Shown in pieces: positions 4,735 through 10,212 of a stretch of DNA of 10,212 bases. Source of the DNA: Candidatus Peregrinibacteria bacterium RIFOXYB2_FULL_32_7 (lineage in GTDB: Bacteria > Patescibacteriota > Gracilibacteria > UBA1369 > GWF2-33-10); contig MFXJ01000034.1 of assembly GCA_001787465.1 (NCBI GenBank), positions 357-10,568 of the forward strand. The letters are read 5' to 3'. Numbering within the stretch: the first letter of the stretch is position 1; the number at the start of each line of letters is the position of its first letter. Made by a program: the position numbers and the translations under genes. Below the pieces are notes generated by a model, which did no database searches, was not told the DNA's origin, and saw only the letters and a list, made by a program, of their open reading frames with translations.

Positions 4735-4963
4735 TATGGAAATTTTTAAAATTTATTTAATATTTTGCTATTTCTGAGTATTAAAGATAAATTTAGCTAT
4801 ATTATTGCATTTATCAGCATGAATAATCAAGAATCTCGTAATTTTAGGACGATATATTGAAATTATTAACAAGCAGTTTTAGCGTTGATAATTTAAAAAA
4901 ATAATAATTTTTGTTACTTTTATATAAATTTATCGTAATAAATAATGTCTAATAAATTAATTT
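4735..4963. promoter_or_regulatory. Divergent intergenic region with probable promoters for both gene runs
   Basis: This 229-bp AT-rich region is the only long spacer and the only place from which both the minus-strand housekeeping run and the plus-strand sigma/DUF3160/Memo-CapA unit can be transcribed, so promoters should lie here. No strong consensus is visible. A weak candidate for the plus strand is ttgtta at 4911-4916 followed by gtaata or taataa near 4935-4941. If the sigma factor regulates its own gene, a non-standard promoter is to be expected and could not be recognised by eye. No tRNA, hairpin or small ORF was found. Confidence 0.4.
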
Positions 4964-5527
4964 ATGGATGACTTAGAAATAATTGTAGACTGCCAAGAAG
5001 GTCGACTTACAGAGTTTACTGTTCTTTATGAAAAATATTTAAGGAAAATTTATAATTATATATATTTTCGGACGTGTTTCAAAGAAACAGCTGAAGATAT
5101 ATGTAGCCAAACTTTTATAAAAGCTTTGGAGAATATAAATAAATTCAATCCTAAAAAAGGTAATTTCAATTCATGGCTTTACGCTATTGCTAGAAATTTG
5201 ATAATCGATCATTTCCGAGCTTTAAAGCACACGGAGGATATACATTCTTTTTGGGATTTACCTTCAAGTGAAAACATTGCAATTAGTGTAAACAATAAAT
5301 TTACAATTCAAGAAGTAAAAAAATATTTAGAAAAGTTAAAACCCGAACAAAAAGAAATTGTTTTACTTAGGATATGGGACGGAATGAGTTTTCGGGAAAT
5401 TGCAGATTTAACTTCTAAAACTGAAGAGAATTGTAAGGTTATTTTTTTCCGTAGTATGAAGTTTTTAAGAAGTAATGTTGAATTTTTATTATTTTTAATT
5501 TTGTTAAAATCTAACTTTAAAATATGA
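4964..5527 (+). CDS. ECF-like RNA polymerase sigma factor
   Basis: This 187-aa protein has only sigma regions 2 and 4, the ECF (group 4) plan. Region 2 spans about residues 20-86: LYEKYLRKIYNYIYFRTC, ETAEDICSQTFIKALENI (the conserved AEDi.Q.tFi.al core-binding pattern), then FNSWLYAIARNLIIDHFRA (-10 recognition). Region 4 spans about 117-170: LEKLKPEQKEIVLLRIWDG, MSFREIADLTSKTEENCKV (helix-turn-helix for the -35), then FFRSMKFLR. An unusual short hydrophobic tail, NVEFLLFLILLKSNFKI, follows region 4. The stop overlaps the next start (ATGA, 5524-5527), the arrangement expected for a sigma factor and a cognate membrane regulator. The start ATG has no Shine-Dalgarno sequence. Its targets are unknown; autoregulation of this three-gene unit is a reasonable inference. 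Confidence 0.93.
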   Translation: MDDLEIIVDCQEGRLTEFTVLYEKYLRKIYNYIYFRTCFKETAEDICSQTFIKALENINKFNPKKGNFNSWLYAIARNLIIDHFRALKHTEDIHSFWDLPSSENIAISVNNKFTIQEVKKYLEKLKPEQKEIVLLRIWDGMSFREIADLTSKTEENCKVIFFRSMKFLRSNVEFLLFLILLKSNFKI

Positions 5528-8223
5528 CCCCTCAAATTCAAGAAATTTTAAATGATCTTTATCTCATTGATTCAAATTTTAAAAAAATGGAAAAAGAATT
5601 AATAGAAATTATAAAAAAGCTTTTAGAAACAAAGCCTGATGTTGAATTCACAAAAGAATTTAAAGATTCTCTGACAAGAGAAATTTTGAATATAATAGAT
5701 AAAAAGATGGAAAATAAATTTTCTTATAAAGATTTTTTTAGCAATTTTTTCTTATCAAAAAAATATGTTTTTAGTTTTGCTTTATTAATTTTATTAATAG
5801 GAACTTCTTTAATTTATTTAAATTTTGAAAGTACTAAGAAAATTCGAGTGGCAAATGTTCAAATTAATCAAGCTTTAGAAACTGGTTTATCATTAGCTGA
5901 TATTTTAAAAACTCAAATTGTTTTTGCTAATGCTAATTTAGCCTATAATCCTATTCAAATAAGTCCAGATATGAAAGAATCAGAAAATAATCCTCTGAAA
6001 GCCAATAATATTGATTACATGCAAAAAGCTTTAAATATTAAATTTACTGATGATCAAATTAAATTTTTGGAAGAAAACAAATTTTTACTTTTGGATATTT
6101 TTAAAAATAAAAATAACTTTTGTTTTTTTCAATTAAACAATTCCGAAGGATGTATGGGTAATCCGGTGGGGGGATATTTATCTTATGATCAAATGGTCAG
6201 CTTGTTTAGCTCGTTTGCGGGCTCAAGTGTTGATTACGGACGAGCTCCTTCTAATGCTTTATACGTAAATTCAGATATAATTTTACATTCATATCATCTC
6301 TTTTTTGATAGATATTTAAAAAGGTTAGAAGAAAAAAATTTATATCCTTTATTAAATAATATTATATTTGCTTTACAGCAAAAAGCATTTATTGAAATTA
6401 AAAATTCTAAAGATCCACAGGAAAAAGATTCTTTAAATAGGATTGCCGCATATTTAACAATTGGGAAAGTCTTATTAGATACTTCAGCTTCTAAGCCTGA
6501 AGCTTTTAATTCAATTGAAGATGAAGAAAATTGGAAAAGCAATGATAAATTTATCGATCAAAATTCTGAAGCTTTTTTGAAAAATTTAGAAAAATATAAA
6601 GATAATTTTGATTCACAAATTTATGAGAAAATGAAATCTGAAATAGTTTTGATCTCAGACTCAAAAAGTACAAATTCTTCGCCTTTATTTGGAGCTTATA
6701 ATCCAAAAGGGATTACTGATTATACCCAATTCACCCCAAGAAGCCATTATAATGAAACTTCAGTTTTAAGGGCATATTTTCGAGCAATGATGCTTTTTGG
6801 AAGGCAGACTTTTTATTTCGGATCAGAAACAGGGTTTAAAGATGCAGTTACTTTAACTTATTTACTTTCTGATCCTCAAATAGAACATAATTGGGAAAAA
6901 TTATTTGATGTAACAAATTTCATAGCTGGCGCTTCTGATGATATTACTTATAATCAGCTAGCCAAAATAACCATTCATGATGTCATCAATGACTGTCAAG
7001 AAAGTTGTAGCGGTGGTTTGCAAATAAAAGACGTATCTTTGACTGATTTATTAAATAATGAAAATTTTGAAAAAATTAAAGATCAAGCAAAAAAACTTCC
7101 AAATCCGAAAATATTTTCTGAAATAGTGTTTGATGAAAATATGGGTGATATGACTAAAGATGATTTATTATTAGCCTCAAAAGGGTTAAGATTGTTCGGT
7201 CAGAAATTTACATTTGATGCTTATGTTTTAAATCAGACGTCAGCAGGAGTAGAAAGTACAGAAATAGGTCTTCCATCAACTCCTTCTTCAGTTTTTGTAG
7301 CTGGTGTTATTGGATCAGATTTAGTTAAAAATATTTTACCTCAGTGGGTTGAGAATCAAAATAATTCAAATCTTAATTCAGATAGTATTTGGAATAAAAT
7401 TTTAAGTTTAAGAGTTGAATTTAATAAATTATCACCTCAAGAATGGCTTTCGAATATAAGCTCAGCTTGGTTATGGTCTTTCTCACCATTACTTCAAAAT
7501 TATGGAGCTGGTTATCCAGCTTTTATGCAAAACGAATTATATCAGACAAAAAATTTGCAATCTGTACTTGGTTCATATACTGAACTTAAACATGATACTT
7601 TATTATATGCGAAACAAAGTTACGCTGAGCTTGGAGCTGGCGGTGGTCCTGAGACAGAAAAACCTGAAATTGTTAAGGGTTTTGTAGAGCCAGATATAGA
7701 GTTTTGGAATAGGATGATTGCTTTAACACGTTTTACTGAAGAGGGTCTTCAATCAAGAGATTTGCTTGATTCTGATGCTCAAGGTAGGCTTGACACATTT
7801 CTGGAAGAACTTAATTTTTATCAAGGTTTAGCCTCAAAAGAATTGCAAAATCAAGAAATTACTGATGATGAGTATGAACAACTTAGAACTAATTTCTGGA
7901 AAGTTTCTCAAATTATTGCTCCTTTTGATAATGCAATTTTAGAAGAAGATGATAAAAAATCACCTTTAGTGGTTGATATACACACTGACGCACTCAAAGA
8001 TCAAATTCTTTATGAAGCTACAGGCTATCCGCTTATAATGCTGTCATTTGTGTCAGATCAAGGCACTCCAAGATTAGTAATAGGTGTTACCTTTAGACAT
8101 TTTGAATTTACTGAAGCTTTGAGCGGACAAAAAAGACTTACCGATCAAGAATGGAAAAAACGCGTAGAAGAAGATAAAATTCCTGAAACTCCATTTTATT
8201 ATAAAGAATTGTTTGTAAAATAA
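5524..8223 (+). CDS. DUF3160 single-pass membrane protein with possible anti-sigma N-terminus
   Basis: The protein has 899 aa. Residues 1-80 are polar, helical and lysine/glutamate-rich (LETKPDVEFTKEFKDSLTREIL), residues 81-100 form one transmembrane helix (YVFSFALLILLIGTSLIYLN), and about 800 residues should lie outside the membrane. The outer part matches DUF3160 along its length: HSYHLFFDRYLKRLEE (255-270), FTPRSHYNETSVLRAYFRAM (403 on), GLRLFGQKFTFDAYVLNQ (about 553-570), TELKHDTLLYAKQ (about 687-699), and the C-terminal ATGYPLIMLSF and FRHFEF (857-862) segments. The biochemical activity of DUF3160 is not known. Placement directly after an ECF sigma gene with a 4-nt overlap, plus the N-in topology, suggests that the cytoplasmic segment is the anti-sigma factor and DUF3160 the sensor or effector; this is inference. 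It overlaps the next gene by 1 nt (TAATG). Confidence 0.88.
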   Translation: MTPQIQEILNDLYLIDSNFKKMEKELIEIIKKLLETKPDVEFTKEFKDSLTREILNIIDKKMENKFSYKDFFSNFFLSKKYVFSFALLILLIGTSLIYLNFESTKKIRVANVQINQALETGLSLADILKTQIVFANANLAYNPIQISPDMKESENNPLKANNIDYMQKALNIKFTDDQIKFLEENKFLLLDIFKNKNNFCFFQLNNSEGCMGNPVGGYLSYDQMVSLFSSFAGSSVDYGRAPSNALYVNSDIILHSYHLFFDRYLKRLEEKNLYPLLNNIIFALQQKAFIEIKNSKDPQEKDSLNRIAAYLTIGKVLLDTSASKPEAFNSIEDEENWKSNDKFIDQNSEAFLKNLEKYKDNFDSQIYEKMKSEIVLISDSKSTNSSPLFGAYNPKGITDYTQFTPRSHYNETSVLRAYFRAMMLFGRQTFYFGSETGFKDAVTLTYLLSDPQIEHNWEKLFDVTNFIAGASDDITYNQLAKITIHDVINDCQESCSGGLQIKDVSLTDLLNNENFEKIKDQAKKLPNPKIFSEIVFDENMGDMTKDDLLLASKGLRLFGQKFTFDAYVLNQTSAGVESTEIGLPSTPSSVFVAGVIGSDLVKNILPQWVENQNNSNLNSDSIWNKILSLRVEFNKLSPQEWLSNISSAWLWSFSPLLQNYGAGYPAFMQNELYQTKNLQSVLGSYTELKHDTLLYAKQSYAELGAGGGPETEKPEIVKGFVEPDIEFWNRMIALTRFTEEGLQSRDLLDSDAQGRLDTFLEELNFYQGLASKELQNQEITDDEYEQLRTNFWKVSQIIAPFDNAILEEDDKKSPLVVDIHTDALKDQILYEATGYPLIMLSFVSDQGTPRLVIGVTFRHFEFTEALSGQKRLTDQEWKKRVEEDKIPETPFYYKELFVK

Positions 8224-9890
8224 TGAAAAAATTAATATTGAGTTTAGGATATTACCGAGGCTGGAAAATTTTATTTTCCAGCCTCGTATTGATTTTGCTT
8301 TTTTTGATATTTTTTCTAAAATTTTTAAATCAAAAAAATCCTGAAACAGCAGTTCATATTCAGAATGAAAATTCAAAATTTTTTTATGAAAATTTATTAA
8401 AAATCTCTAATAAAGAAAGCATTCGAAATAGTACTGAAATTTTTACAGTAACAGTTCCTCATCATTTATTGGCATCTGATTTAATTGCAAAAACTTTTAA
8501 ACAAATAGAAGATCAACAGCCCAAAAATATTTTCATTTTATCGCCTGATCATTTTGATAGAGGTAAAACTAAAATAACAATTTCAAATATTCCTCTTGAG
8601 ACCCCTATTTCTAAGACTTTGTTAAATAAGTCTTTAATTAATAAATTAAAAAAAATAAAAAATATAGAAGTAAATAATGAAGTTTTTAAATATGAACATG
8701 GGATTGGAGCTGTCCTTCCTTTTGCACAAATAGTTTGGCCGAAAGTAAATTTTATACCAATCTTAATAAGAAAAGACGCAAAAAAGGAAGATTTGGAAGA
8801 TTTAATAAGATTTTTAAATGAAAATATTAAAAATAATTTGATAATAGAAAGTTCAGATTTTTCACATTATTTAAATGAAAAAGATGCAAATAAAAAAGAT
8901 CAGGAAACTATTAATATTTTTTCAAATGAAAATCCTGAAAAGATTTGGAACTTAAATCAGCCTGATAATTGCGATTCAGTAAATATCCTTTATATAATAA
9001 AGAAATTACAAACTTTAAATAATTGGGATACGGAATTTTATCTTAATCGAAATTCTCAATTTTATACAAAAGACAATGTCAATGAAACAACAAGCTACAT
9101 AACCTTTTTTAATTCTGGGGAGGAAATGGAAATTTTTGATAAAGCTAATGAAATTTTATTAGCAGGTGATTTTTTTACTGGAAGATATAATTTAGAAAAT
9201 TTTAGAAATCAGGAATTTTTAAATAAAAAAATAAATGAAATTTTAAACAAAACAAAAGATAGAAAAATGATTTTAAATTTTGAAGGTTATTTAGATCAAC
9301 AATGTGTTTTTGATCAATTAAAGCTTTGTATGGAAGAAAAACCCACACTTGAATTTTTGAAAGAATTAAATGTAGTAGCTGTTAGTCTTGCTAATAATCA
9401 TTCTTTAGATGGTGGTAAAGATAAATATAATTTTACAAAAAATTTATTGGAAAAAAATGAGATTTTGGTAGTTGAAGAGAATGAATATGAAAAAATAATT
9501 TTGAATAAATATAATTTTGAAATTTTAGGGTTAAATGATATAAATCCAATTACAAAAGAAAGAAATAATATTTATTTAAAATCTTTATCTGAATTTTTAG
9601 ATCAAAAAAAGGATAAATTTTTTAAAAAATTTATTTTTATACATTGGGGTAGAGAAAACTCAAATTCTTTAGATACAAGAGATGAATTAATTTTAGCAAT
9701 TTTGGGAAAATATAACTTTGATGGCATTTTTGGAGCACATACTCATATAGCTTCAAACTTAAGTTATATTAATGATTTACCATTTGTTTTTTCTTTGGGG
9801 AATTTCTTCTTTGATCAAATCAATAACTCTGAACAAATGATAAGAATTAAATTTTTTGATACAGGGAATTTCTCCTTAAAAAATATATAA
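8223..9890 (+). CDS. Membrane-anchored fusion of a Memo-type domain (AmmeMemoRadiSam B) and a CapA-like metallophosphatase
   Basis: The protein has 555 aa. Residues about 15-35 form a transmembrane anchor. Residues about 75-297 are a Memo domain: VPHHLLAS with His80/81, ILSPDHFDRG with His110, YEHGIGAVLPF (158-167), ESSDFSHY (209-216), DNCDSV with Cys250, and the closing YTKDNVNETTSYITFF. The candidate metal-site histidines and cysteine are present. Residues about 309-548 are a CapA/PGA_cap fold of the calcineurin-like class: LLAGDFFTG, NFEG (352-355), VVAVSLANNHSLDGG (385-398), FIHWGRE (472-478), GAHTH (504-508) and FSLGNFFFDQ (523-532). Both domains look complete. Function is unproven; CapA proteins act in poly-gamma-glutamate capsule formation, and Memo proteins are metal-binding, dioxygenase-like proteins. 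The ATG at 8223 overlaps the DUF3160 stop (TAATG). A strong palindrome occupies codons 12-22; a TTG at 8289 is an alternative start that would leave it untranslated. Confidence 0.88.
   Translation: MKKLILSLGYYRGWKILFSSLVLILLFLIFFLKFLNQKNPETAVHIQNENSKFFYENLLKISNKESIRNSTEIFTVTVPHHLLASDLIAKTFKQIEDQQPKNIFILSPDHFDRGKTKITISNIPLETPISKTLLNKSLINKLKKIKNIEVNNEVFKYEHGIGAVLPFAQIVWPKVNFIPILIRKDAKKEDLEDLIRFLNENIKNNLIIESSDFSHYLNEKDANKKDQETINIFSNENPEKIWNLNQPDNCDSVNILYIIKKLQTLNNWDTEFYLNRNSQFYTKDNVNETTSYITFFNSGEEMEIFDKANEILLAGDFFTGRYNLENFRNQEFLNKKINEILNKTKDRKMILNFEGYLDQQCVFDQLKLCMEEKPTLEFLKELNVVAVSLANNHSLDGGKDKYNFTKNLLEKNEILVVEENEYEKIILNKYNFEILGLNDINPITKERNNIYLKSLSEFLDQKKDKFFKKFIFIHWGRENSNSLDTRDELILAILGKYNFDGIFGAHTHIASNLSYINDLPFVFSLGNFFFDQINNSEQMIRIKFFDTGNFSLKNI
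8256..8286. repeat. Palindrome in the first codons of the Memo-CapA gene
   Basis: CGAGGCTGGAAAA (8256-8268) pairs perfectly with TTTTCCAGCCTCG (8274-8286). One further T-A pair closes the loop to 3 nt, making a 14-bp stem. Flanking TA/TA pairing resumes outside an unpaired C at 8255. The element starts exactly on codon 12. It is not followed directly by a U-tract, so an intrinsic terminator is unlikely. It may be an inserted palindromic element, or a hairpin tuning translation or mRNA stability at the DUF3160/Memo-CapA junction. Confidence 0.85.
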
Positions 9891-9935: not shown

Positions 9936-10212
9936 ATGTCAGAAATTATTTATCAAAATTTCGAGCAATATCTAATTTATTTACGTGAACTTTTAAAATT
10001 TCGTACGGTTTTTACTGAGCCGGAAAATGTGAGAGAAGGTATTGATTATTGTAAAAAAGTTTTTGAAGAGAATTTAGAAAATTATAAAATTTATTTTGAT
10101 GCGGAAAATAATTTGATTGCCGTTCCAAGTGAAGTAAATTTTGAAGAAAATATTATTTATTTAAGTGCTCACATTGATACTGTAGGTGCTGATGAAAATG
10201 AATGGGATAGTC
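9936..10212 (+). CDS. M20-family metallopeptidase (partial, N-terminal 92 residues)
   Basis: The open frame starts at ATG 9936 and runs off the right edge without a stop. Residues 7-50 are an amphipathic helical start typical of M20 dipeptidase/deacetylase proteins (YLRELLKFRTV, then GIDYCKKVFEEN). Residues 58-64 give the NNLIAVP strand, and 75-83 give YLSAHIDTV, the first metal-binding H-x-D motif (His79, Asp81), followed by an EW-D segment like the W.-DPF sequence after it in the family. M20 enzymes are zinc or cobalt hydrolases of peptides or N-acyl amino acids. The specific substrate cannot be judged because the other metal ligands and the lid domain lie outside the window. It follows the Memo-CapA gene by 45 bp in the same direction and may be read from the same transcript. 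Confidence 0.8.
   Translation, partial: MSEIIYQNFEQYLIYLRELLKFRTVFTEPENVREGIDYCKKVFEENLENYKIYFDAENNLIAVPSEVNFEENIIYLSAHIDTVGADENEWDS

Follow-up and report, generated by a model that had tools for sequence, protein, structure and literature searches.

The window, by which we mean the whole stretch of 10,212 nucleotides that was analysed, belongs to a 1.11-Mb draft genome of 116 contigs that is 74% complete. We located the following features in it:

4908-4943, + strand: ECF-type promoter TTGTTAC-N16-CGTA, with TTAC at 4914-4917 and CGTA at 4934-4937 (23.8 bits)
4964-5527, + strand: ORF1, ECF sigma factor with regions 2 and 4, 187 aa (PF04542, PF08281, TIGR02937)
5524-8223, + strand: ORF2, anti-sigma-like domain and membrane helix fused to DUF3160, 899 aa
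5524-5823, + strand: anti-sigma-like N-terminal domain and membrane helix of ORF2, residues 1-100, helix at about 75-99 (A2 profile, hydropathy)
6055-8193, + strand: DUF3160 domain of ORF2, residues 178-890 (PF11369)
8223-9890, + strand: ORF3, membrane-anchored Memo-CapA protein, 555 aa
8256-8286, + strand: 14-bp hairpin within the 5' end of ORF3 (fold z-score -5.0)
8445-9023, + strand: Memo domain of ORF3, residues 75-267 (PF01875 and TIGR04336, both above their cut-offs)
9153-9818, + strand: CapA/PGA_cap domain of ORF3, residues 311-532 (PF09587)

The three overlapping genes that the sequence-only reading had placed here were all re-found, with overlaps of 4 nt between ORF1 and ORF2 and of 1 nt between ORF2 and ORF3, and with the letters ATGA and TAATG at the junctions. 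Their identities (ECF sigma factor, DUF3160 protein, Memo-CapA protein) were confirmed as well by matches to the family profiles. ORF1 has the size of an ECF sigma factor (about 190 aa) and carries regions 2 and 4 alone; its profile matches had E-values of 1.7e-18 for PF04542 and 4.3e-11 for PF08281, and a score of 93.2 bits for TIGR02937, against a cut-off of 42.9. ORF2 matched PF11369 with 450 bits (cut-off 25) over profile positions 4-629 of 632, and it retains the invariant DUF3160 columns of our alignment A5, indicating that this domain is not decaying. For ORF3, the scores were 73 bits against the Memo family PF01875 and 60.6 bits against the PGA_cap/CapA family PF09587, each with a cut-off of 27. 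The Memo domain keeps H80, H81, H110, H159, D212 and H215, which are invariant in 46 relatives; the conserved H and D residues are, from what is known of the family, presumably metal-binding. The CapA domain keeps D316, N352, E354, N391, N392, H393, H474, E478, H506 and H508, invariant in 23 relatives, and its phosphatase-like polar signature residues are intact, with F353 and N498 deviating at other columns that are invariant in the relatives. In the same Memo/CapA comparison, S130 of ORF3 also deviates at a conserved column. The hairpin, a strong one, lies inside the Memo-CapA gene and is followed by a U-rich tail. It is possibly an attenuator or the remnant of a repeat, and it could uncouple ORF3 from the genes upstream, which counts against the explanation that we prefer below; the stoichiometric expression suggested from the gene overlaps may thus not hold. 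Another gene on the same strand, peptidase-like with a weak match to ArgE/DapE-type models, begins 45 nt after ORF3 (9936-10211) and may be on the same transcript.

ORF2 proved to be made of two parts, an anti-sigma-like domain with a helix in residues ~1-100 and a stretch similar to DUF3160 from residue ~120. The ~75 residues ahead of the membrane helix are homologous to a domain that adjoins ECF sigma genes in other Patescibacteria. When 286 genomes of the phylum were searched with ORF2, the matches fell into two classes: DUF3160 proteins, matching from residue 144 onward, and others, matching over the first ~120 residues only. At all 10 loci recognised, the proteins that match just the N-terminus sit directly 3' of an ECF sigma gene. 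We then made a profile (A2) from the N-terminal stretch and ran it genome-wide, blind to sigma genes and with a threshold of E 0.001 or better. It matched in 40 of 148 relatives and in 40 of 379 genomes of the phylum; these sets share members, and the window's genome is in each of them. Scoring was possible for 50 distinct pairs, that of the window among them, and in all of these the domain starts between -7 and +124 nt from the stop of the ECF sigma gene, on the same strand. By its arrangement across these genomes, the ECF sigma gene with its anti-sigma-like partner is a module of the Patescibacteria. Distances between sigma factors and distances between partner domains are correlated (r 0.61 for 48 pairs; maximum of 0.26 over 2000 permutations), shared ancestry not being controlled for in this comparison, and shared ancestry alone could explain the correlation.

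The partner proteins range from ~180 to 1,850 aa and their outer parts are varied: a beta-propeller (L024, L027), DUF333 (L222), an alpha-2-macroglobulin (L196) or nothing that Pfam recognises. Among the sigma partners examined, the window's is the only one with DUF3160 as its outer part. In two bacterial alpha-2-macroglobulins located directly 3' of ECF sigma genes (L195:5136-10412, 1758 aa; L196:7116-12665, 1849 aa), a Hint/intein-like domain separates the bait region from the A2M domain; the anti-sigma-like profile matches the protein in L196 weakly and that in L195 not at all. It would be unusual for a sigma partner to have an outer domain that processes itself. For the N-terminus of ORF2, helices are predicted at residues 3-15, 17-36 and 44-76, then at 82-99 in the membrane, with a mean pLDDT of 73 (51-63 after residue 60). 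ORF2 had been read from the sequence as a DUF3160 protein with a membrane anchor and nothing more. This view had to be given up, since the protein starts with an anti-sigma-like module that is in frame with DUF3160, which explains why a sigma gene is present here.

The promoter lies 20 nt ahead of the start codon of the sigma gene. It scored 23.8 bits with a 29-site matrix made without the window and 22.6 bits in the leave-one-out scoring; the runner-up site in the window reached 8.2 bits. For sites of at least 14-16 bits, the null rate is 1-2 per Mb on each strand. TTGTTAC-N16-CGTA is common upstream of the sigma genes of this family, the dyad TTAC-N16-CGTA being exact in 19 of 45, and five rounds of shuffling gave no dyad above 10. 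Leave-one-out scores were at least 14 bits for 31 of the 45 sigma genes and lower for the other 14. Of 66 stretches taken from upstream of other genes at these loci, one reached that level, as did none of the shuffled sequences. The family motif resembles the SigW promoter of B. subtilis, TGAAAC-N16-CGTA. The idea that the unit has an ECF sigma gene of its own was thus supported by the motif search, in that the window's sigma gene has a specific promoter of the family type. Given the presence and specificity of the motif, the sigma factor would drive its own operon from this promoter.

To look at the surroundings of DUF3160, we took 102 loci, 95 of them distinct and 84 of these with at least 300 nt downstream or a recognised neighbour. 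The adjacency to Memo/CapA noticed in the window turned out to be widespread: the next gene on the same strand is Memo at 25 of the 84 loci, Memo-CapA at 23 and CapA at 5, that is, one of the three at 53. The gap to DUF3160 is 10 nt or less in 39 of these 53, and, going by the record titles, the pair is present in Patescibacteria, Riflebacteria, Deltaproteobacteria, Verrucomicrobia, one Spirochaetia and one Holophagaceae. The 31 loci where the next gene is none of these are 18 distant relatives (L139-L160), 10 Patescibacteria, most of which have a small unrelated protein after DUF3160, and three others. Upstream, 84 loci had 600 nt or more of sequence, and at none of them was a sigma gene found on the same strand within 1 kb. 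The ECF sigma gene is therefore not a conserved neighbour of DUF3160, and conservation of the whole three-gene unit is ruled out. These comparisons indicate that DUF3160-Memo/CapA is a recurrent, uncharacterised putative operon in its own right.

The predicted structure of DUF3160 is confident (mean pLDDT 84.5), and no convincing relative of the model was found among solved structures. Among the openly licensed papers searched, one was found to name DUF3160, and it enters the family as a secreted enzyme (PMC4158269). One 980-aa protein (P0006) combines DUF3160 with an SLH (S-layer homology) domain, which is another sign of DUF3160 acting at the cell surface. Two genomes from the order to which the window belongs also have a Memo gene that stands alone and ends 6 and 44 nt ahead of a same-strand ECF sigma gene (L194:3291-4682 and L195:3500-5139). 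A modest promoter-motif site of 12.3 bits is present at the Memo start in L194, and none was found at Memo in L195.

The reach of the promoter motif was followed beyond the sigma genes. General control of DUF3160 operons by the motif was rejected: in 105 upstream stretches, some of them duplicates, no site exceeded 11.4 bits, and the one with this score was inside coding sequence. No DUF3160 gene of an 11-locus set is preceded by a site of at least 14 bits; the only such case is G201, where the site stands behind an extra small gene. Five genomes were found to have both the sigma family and a DUF3160-Memo operon (G201, G376, G398, G410 and G166). The motif is upstream of DUF3160 in G201 alone, so control of DUF3160-Memo by this sigma family is not general. 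In G201, the motif (26.6 bits) precedes the small gene, DUF3160 and Memo, 7.6 kb from the genome's own sigma promoter (30.9 bits). A third strong site in this neighbourhood (L084:9509-9544, - strand, 25.0 bits) stands before a 279-aa gene with a hydrophobic start.

In the window's genome, a large regulon was set aside for now: the motif occurs at 26 places with at most two mismatches, versus 65 for the reversed control. Matrix scoring was confined to these places, and among them the window promoter is the only strong intergenic site in the assembled genome; the other exact match, with 14.2 bits, falls within a permease-like gene, and the next match between genes (L245) scores 12.0 bits. A 20.8-bit site in L124 was dropped, being within an 826-aa frame. 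An exact search of 37 genomes with a stringent form of the motif gave 11 occurrences in 10 genomes, against one for the reversed control. Six of the 11 are sigma-gene promoters, and three more, scoring 18.6 to 21.2 bits in three Patescibacteria genomes, precede genes for an M23 peptidase, an SLH-domain protein and a SIMPL/DUF541 protein (L266, L272, L275). Of the remaining two, one is the G201 site ahead of the small gene, DUF3160 and Memo, and the other, in G242, has no clear target. The ECF promoter sites before envelope-type genes hint at an envelope regulon.

Altogether, we consider that the locus most probably encodes an autoregulated ECF sigma/transmembrane anti-sigma switch, the outer part of which is DUF3160 from a DUF3160-Memo-CapA envelope operon, and we give this explanation a probability of roughly 0.6. 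At the level of sequence, ORF2 joins a sigma-partner domain and a helix to DUF3160, the family promoter is in place and the DUF3160-Memo-CapA pair is recurrent. Residues 1-75 of ORF2 would tether the sigma factor at the membrane, and DUF3160 would be the sensor outside the cell. An event sensed by DUF3160, or acting on it, would free the sigma factor, probably by proteolysis, for which we propose an intramembrane step. The freed sigma factor would then transcribe its own gene, the anti-sigma/DUF3160 gene and Memo-CapA from 4908-4943, and the sensor and its co-expressed effector Memo-CapA would be raised together. A site-2-type protease family (PF02163) is present in the window's genome, and since it is also present in 14 of 14 control genomes, this says little for the mechanism of release. 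The cell-surface sensing circuit that had been suggested for these genes is thus the reading that we judge best. The presence of the same promoter ahead of DUF3160-Memo in G201, a member of an unrelated Patescibacteria family, points the same way. Against it stand the occurrence of the fusion in one lineage, the N-terminus that no Pfam anti-sigma family matches and, among the five genomes named above, the occurrence of a promoter before DUF3160 just in G201. A wider proposal, to which we give somewhat less than even odds, is that DUF3160-Memo(-CapA) is an undescribed and widespread envelope system whose physiology the fusion in this genome reveals, and that DUF3160 serves here as the sensor of a dedicated ECF switch, the condition that it meets outside the cell being the signal for making the system. 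The G201 promoter speaks for this proposal too.

The origin of the fusion bears on the other explanations. Each of the four proteins closest to ORF2 (54-56% identical) carries a lipoprotein box, whose cysteine falls within residues 18-22, and their clear similarity to ORF2 starts at residue ~120, behind the membrane helix; the anti-sigma-like module with its helix therefore occupies the place of the lipoprotein signal. The anti-sigma-like domain is absent from the 51 other DUF3160 proteins of the protein search, some of which are fragments without an N-terminus, and from all 95 distinct DUF3160 loci. No second fusion was found among 353 genomes of the class, where the matches fetched or listed span either the N-terminus or DUF3160. 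In a tree in which 26 of 45 inner branches are weak, the window's sigma factor is placed together with the sigma factors of G290, from its order, and G410, from its class (support 95/91). In G410, the sigma-partner gene and the DUF3160-Memo-CapA operon are separate, so the fusion is probably derived. Its restriction to one lineage and the separate genes in G410 also suit the idea that a rearrangement joined the two by accident. DUF3160 would then function as an ordinary envelope protein, held in the membrane by an anti-sigma part with no other role, and the sigma factor would be unregulated or decaying. We hold this to be rather unlikely, because the sigma gene, promoter, N-terminal domain and DUF3160 look intact, the frame is open throughout and exchanged outer domains are the rule in the partner family. 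Some genomes of the same class have in-frame TGA codons, and we infer that the window's organism is a Gracilibacteria-type Patescibacterium with the standard code.

An assembly chimera, in which the DUF3160 operon would have another genomic location or another organism as its source than the sigma/anti-sigma part, might be suspected in so fragmented and incomplete a draft, and the GC content varies from 0.22 to 0.33 along the window. This explanation is very improbable, as the junction lies within one open frame and the sigma gene clusters with those of other members of the window's order and class. Moreover, an identical 899-aa protein is recorded with a longest contig of 29.7 kb, versus 10.6 kb for the window's contig, so the junction in ORF2 is no artefact of the ends of this contig. 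It would also be conceivable that the sigma/anti-sigma part works with DUF3160 riding along as an enzyme or scaffold, the signal being received at the linker near the membrane and Memo-CapA accompanying DUF3160 as elsewhere. The pairing with Memo/CapA in other genomes without any sigma gene is in accordance with this, as is the entry of the family as a secreted enzyme in one paper (PMC4158269). In PMC7406223 and PMC12203970, however, the membrane anti-sigma factors described are thought to sense their stimulus via the outer domain, even one derived from an enzyme, and we regard a passenger role for DUF3160 as improbable.

The switch that we favour has known counterparts. Class I anti-sigma factors bind sigma with their N-terminal domain, which is followed by further domains (PMC7406223). 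Like the transmembrane members of this class covered there (RseA, RskA, RsiW), ORF2 is encoded directly after an ECF sigma gene and has a small, helical, cytoplasmic N-terminal domain, one membrane helix, an exchangeable domain behind it and a putative autoregulated operon (PMC7406223). The adjoining sigma gene overlaps by 4 nt here, and the adjacency is family-wide in the 50 pairs scored. The class I (ASDI) fold consists of four helices, three of them bundled and the fourth following a linker, and the helices predicted for ORF2 neither prove nor exclude it. Unlike class I factors, ORF2 has an N-terminus that matches no Pfam anti-sigma family, and its outer domain is DUF3160. A further comparison is offered by SigI, which is not known as an ECF factor. 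Its partner RsgI from Clostridium thermocellum has outer domains that sense substrate and an N-terminal fragment freed by proteolysis (PMC12203970). ORF2 resembles RsgI in being a putative anti-sigma factor of the membrane whose outer domain is large; in RsgI, this domain may be a hydrolase or peptidase-like. The ECF partner of ORF2 differs from SigI, which is treated there as a sigma-70 family factor apart from the ECF families considered (PMC12203970).

As in the other DUF3160-Memo and DUF3160-Memo-CapA pairs, the window's Memo-CapA gene directly follows DUF3160. Elsewhere, DUF3160 starts with a lipoprotein signal or with a short anchor, and no sigma gene was found ahead of it at any of the 84 loci. 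ORF3 shares with the AmmeMemoRadiSam system protein B (TIGR04336) a Memo domain that scores above the cut-off; unlike that protein, it has a membrane anchor and its Memo domain is joined to CapA. Among the proteins profile-scanned here, which are a part of the genome, neither a radical-SAM nor an AMMECR1 protein was found. Among the openly licensed papers searched, we found none on ECF/anti-sigma switches in the Candidate Phyla Radiation or Patescibacteria. What is new, in our judgement, is a putative sigma/anti-sigma switch of known type with a new outer domain that comes from a recurrent uncharacterised operon.

The outcome is a sigma/anti-sigma family that spans the phylum, has a defined promoter and can be put to the test. 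DUF3160 and the enigmatic Memo proteins are, moreover, linked to an envelope operon that recurs. In one lineage, this operon appears to have been turned into its own sensor circuit, which would open the function of DUF3160 to study via a reporter of its signal.
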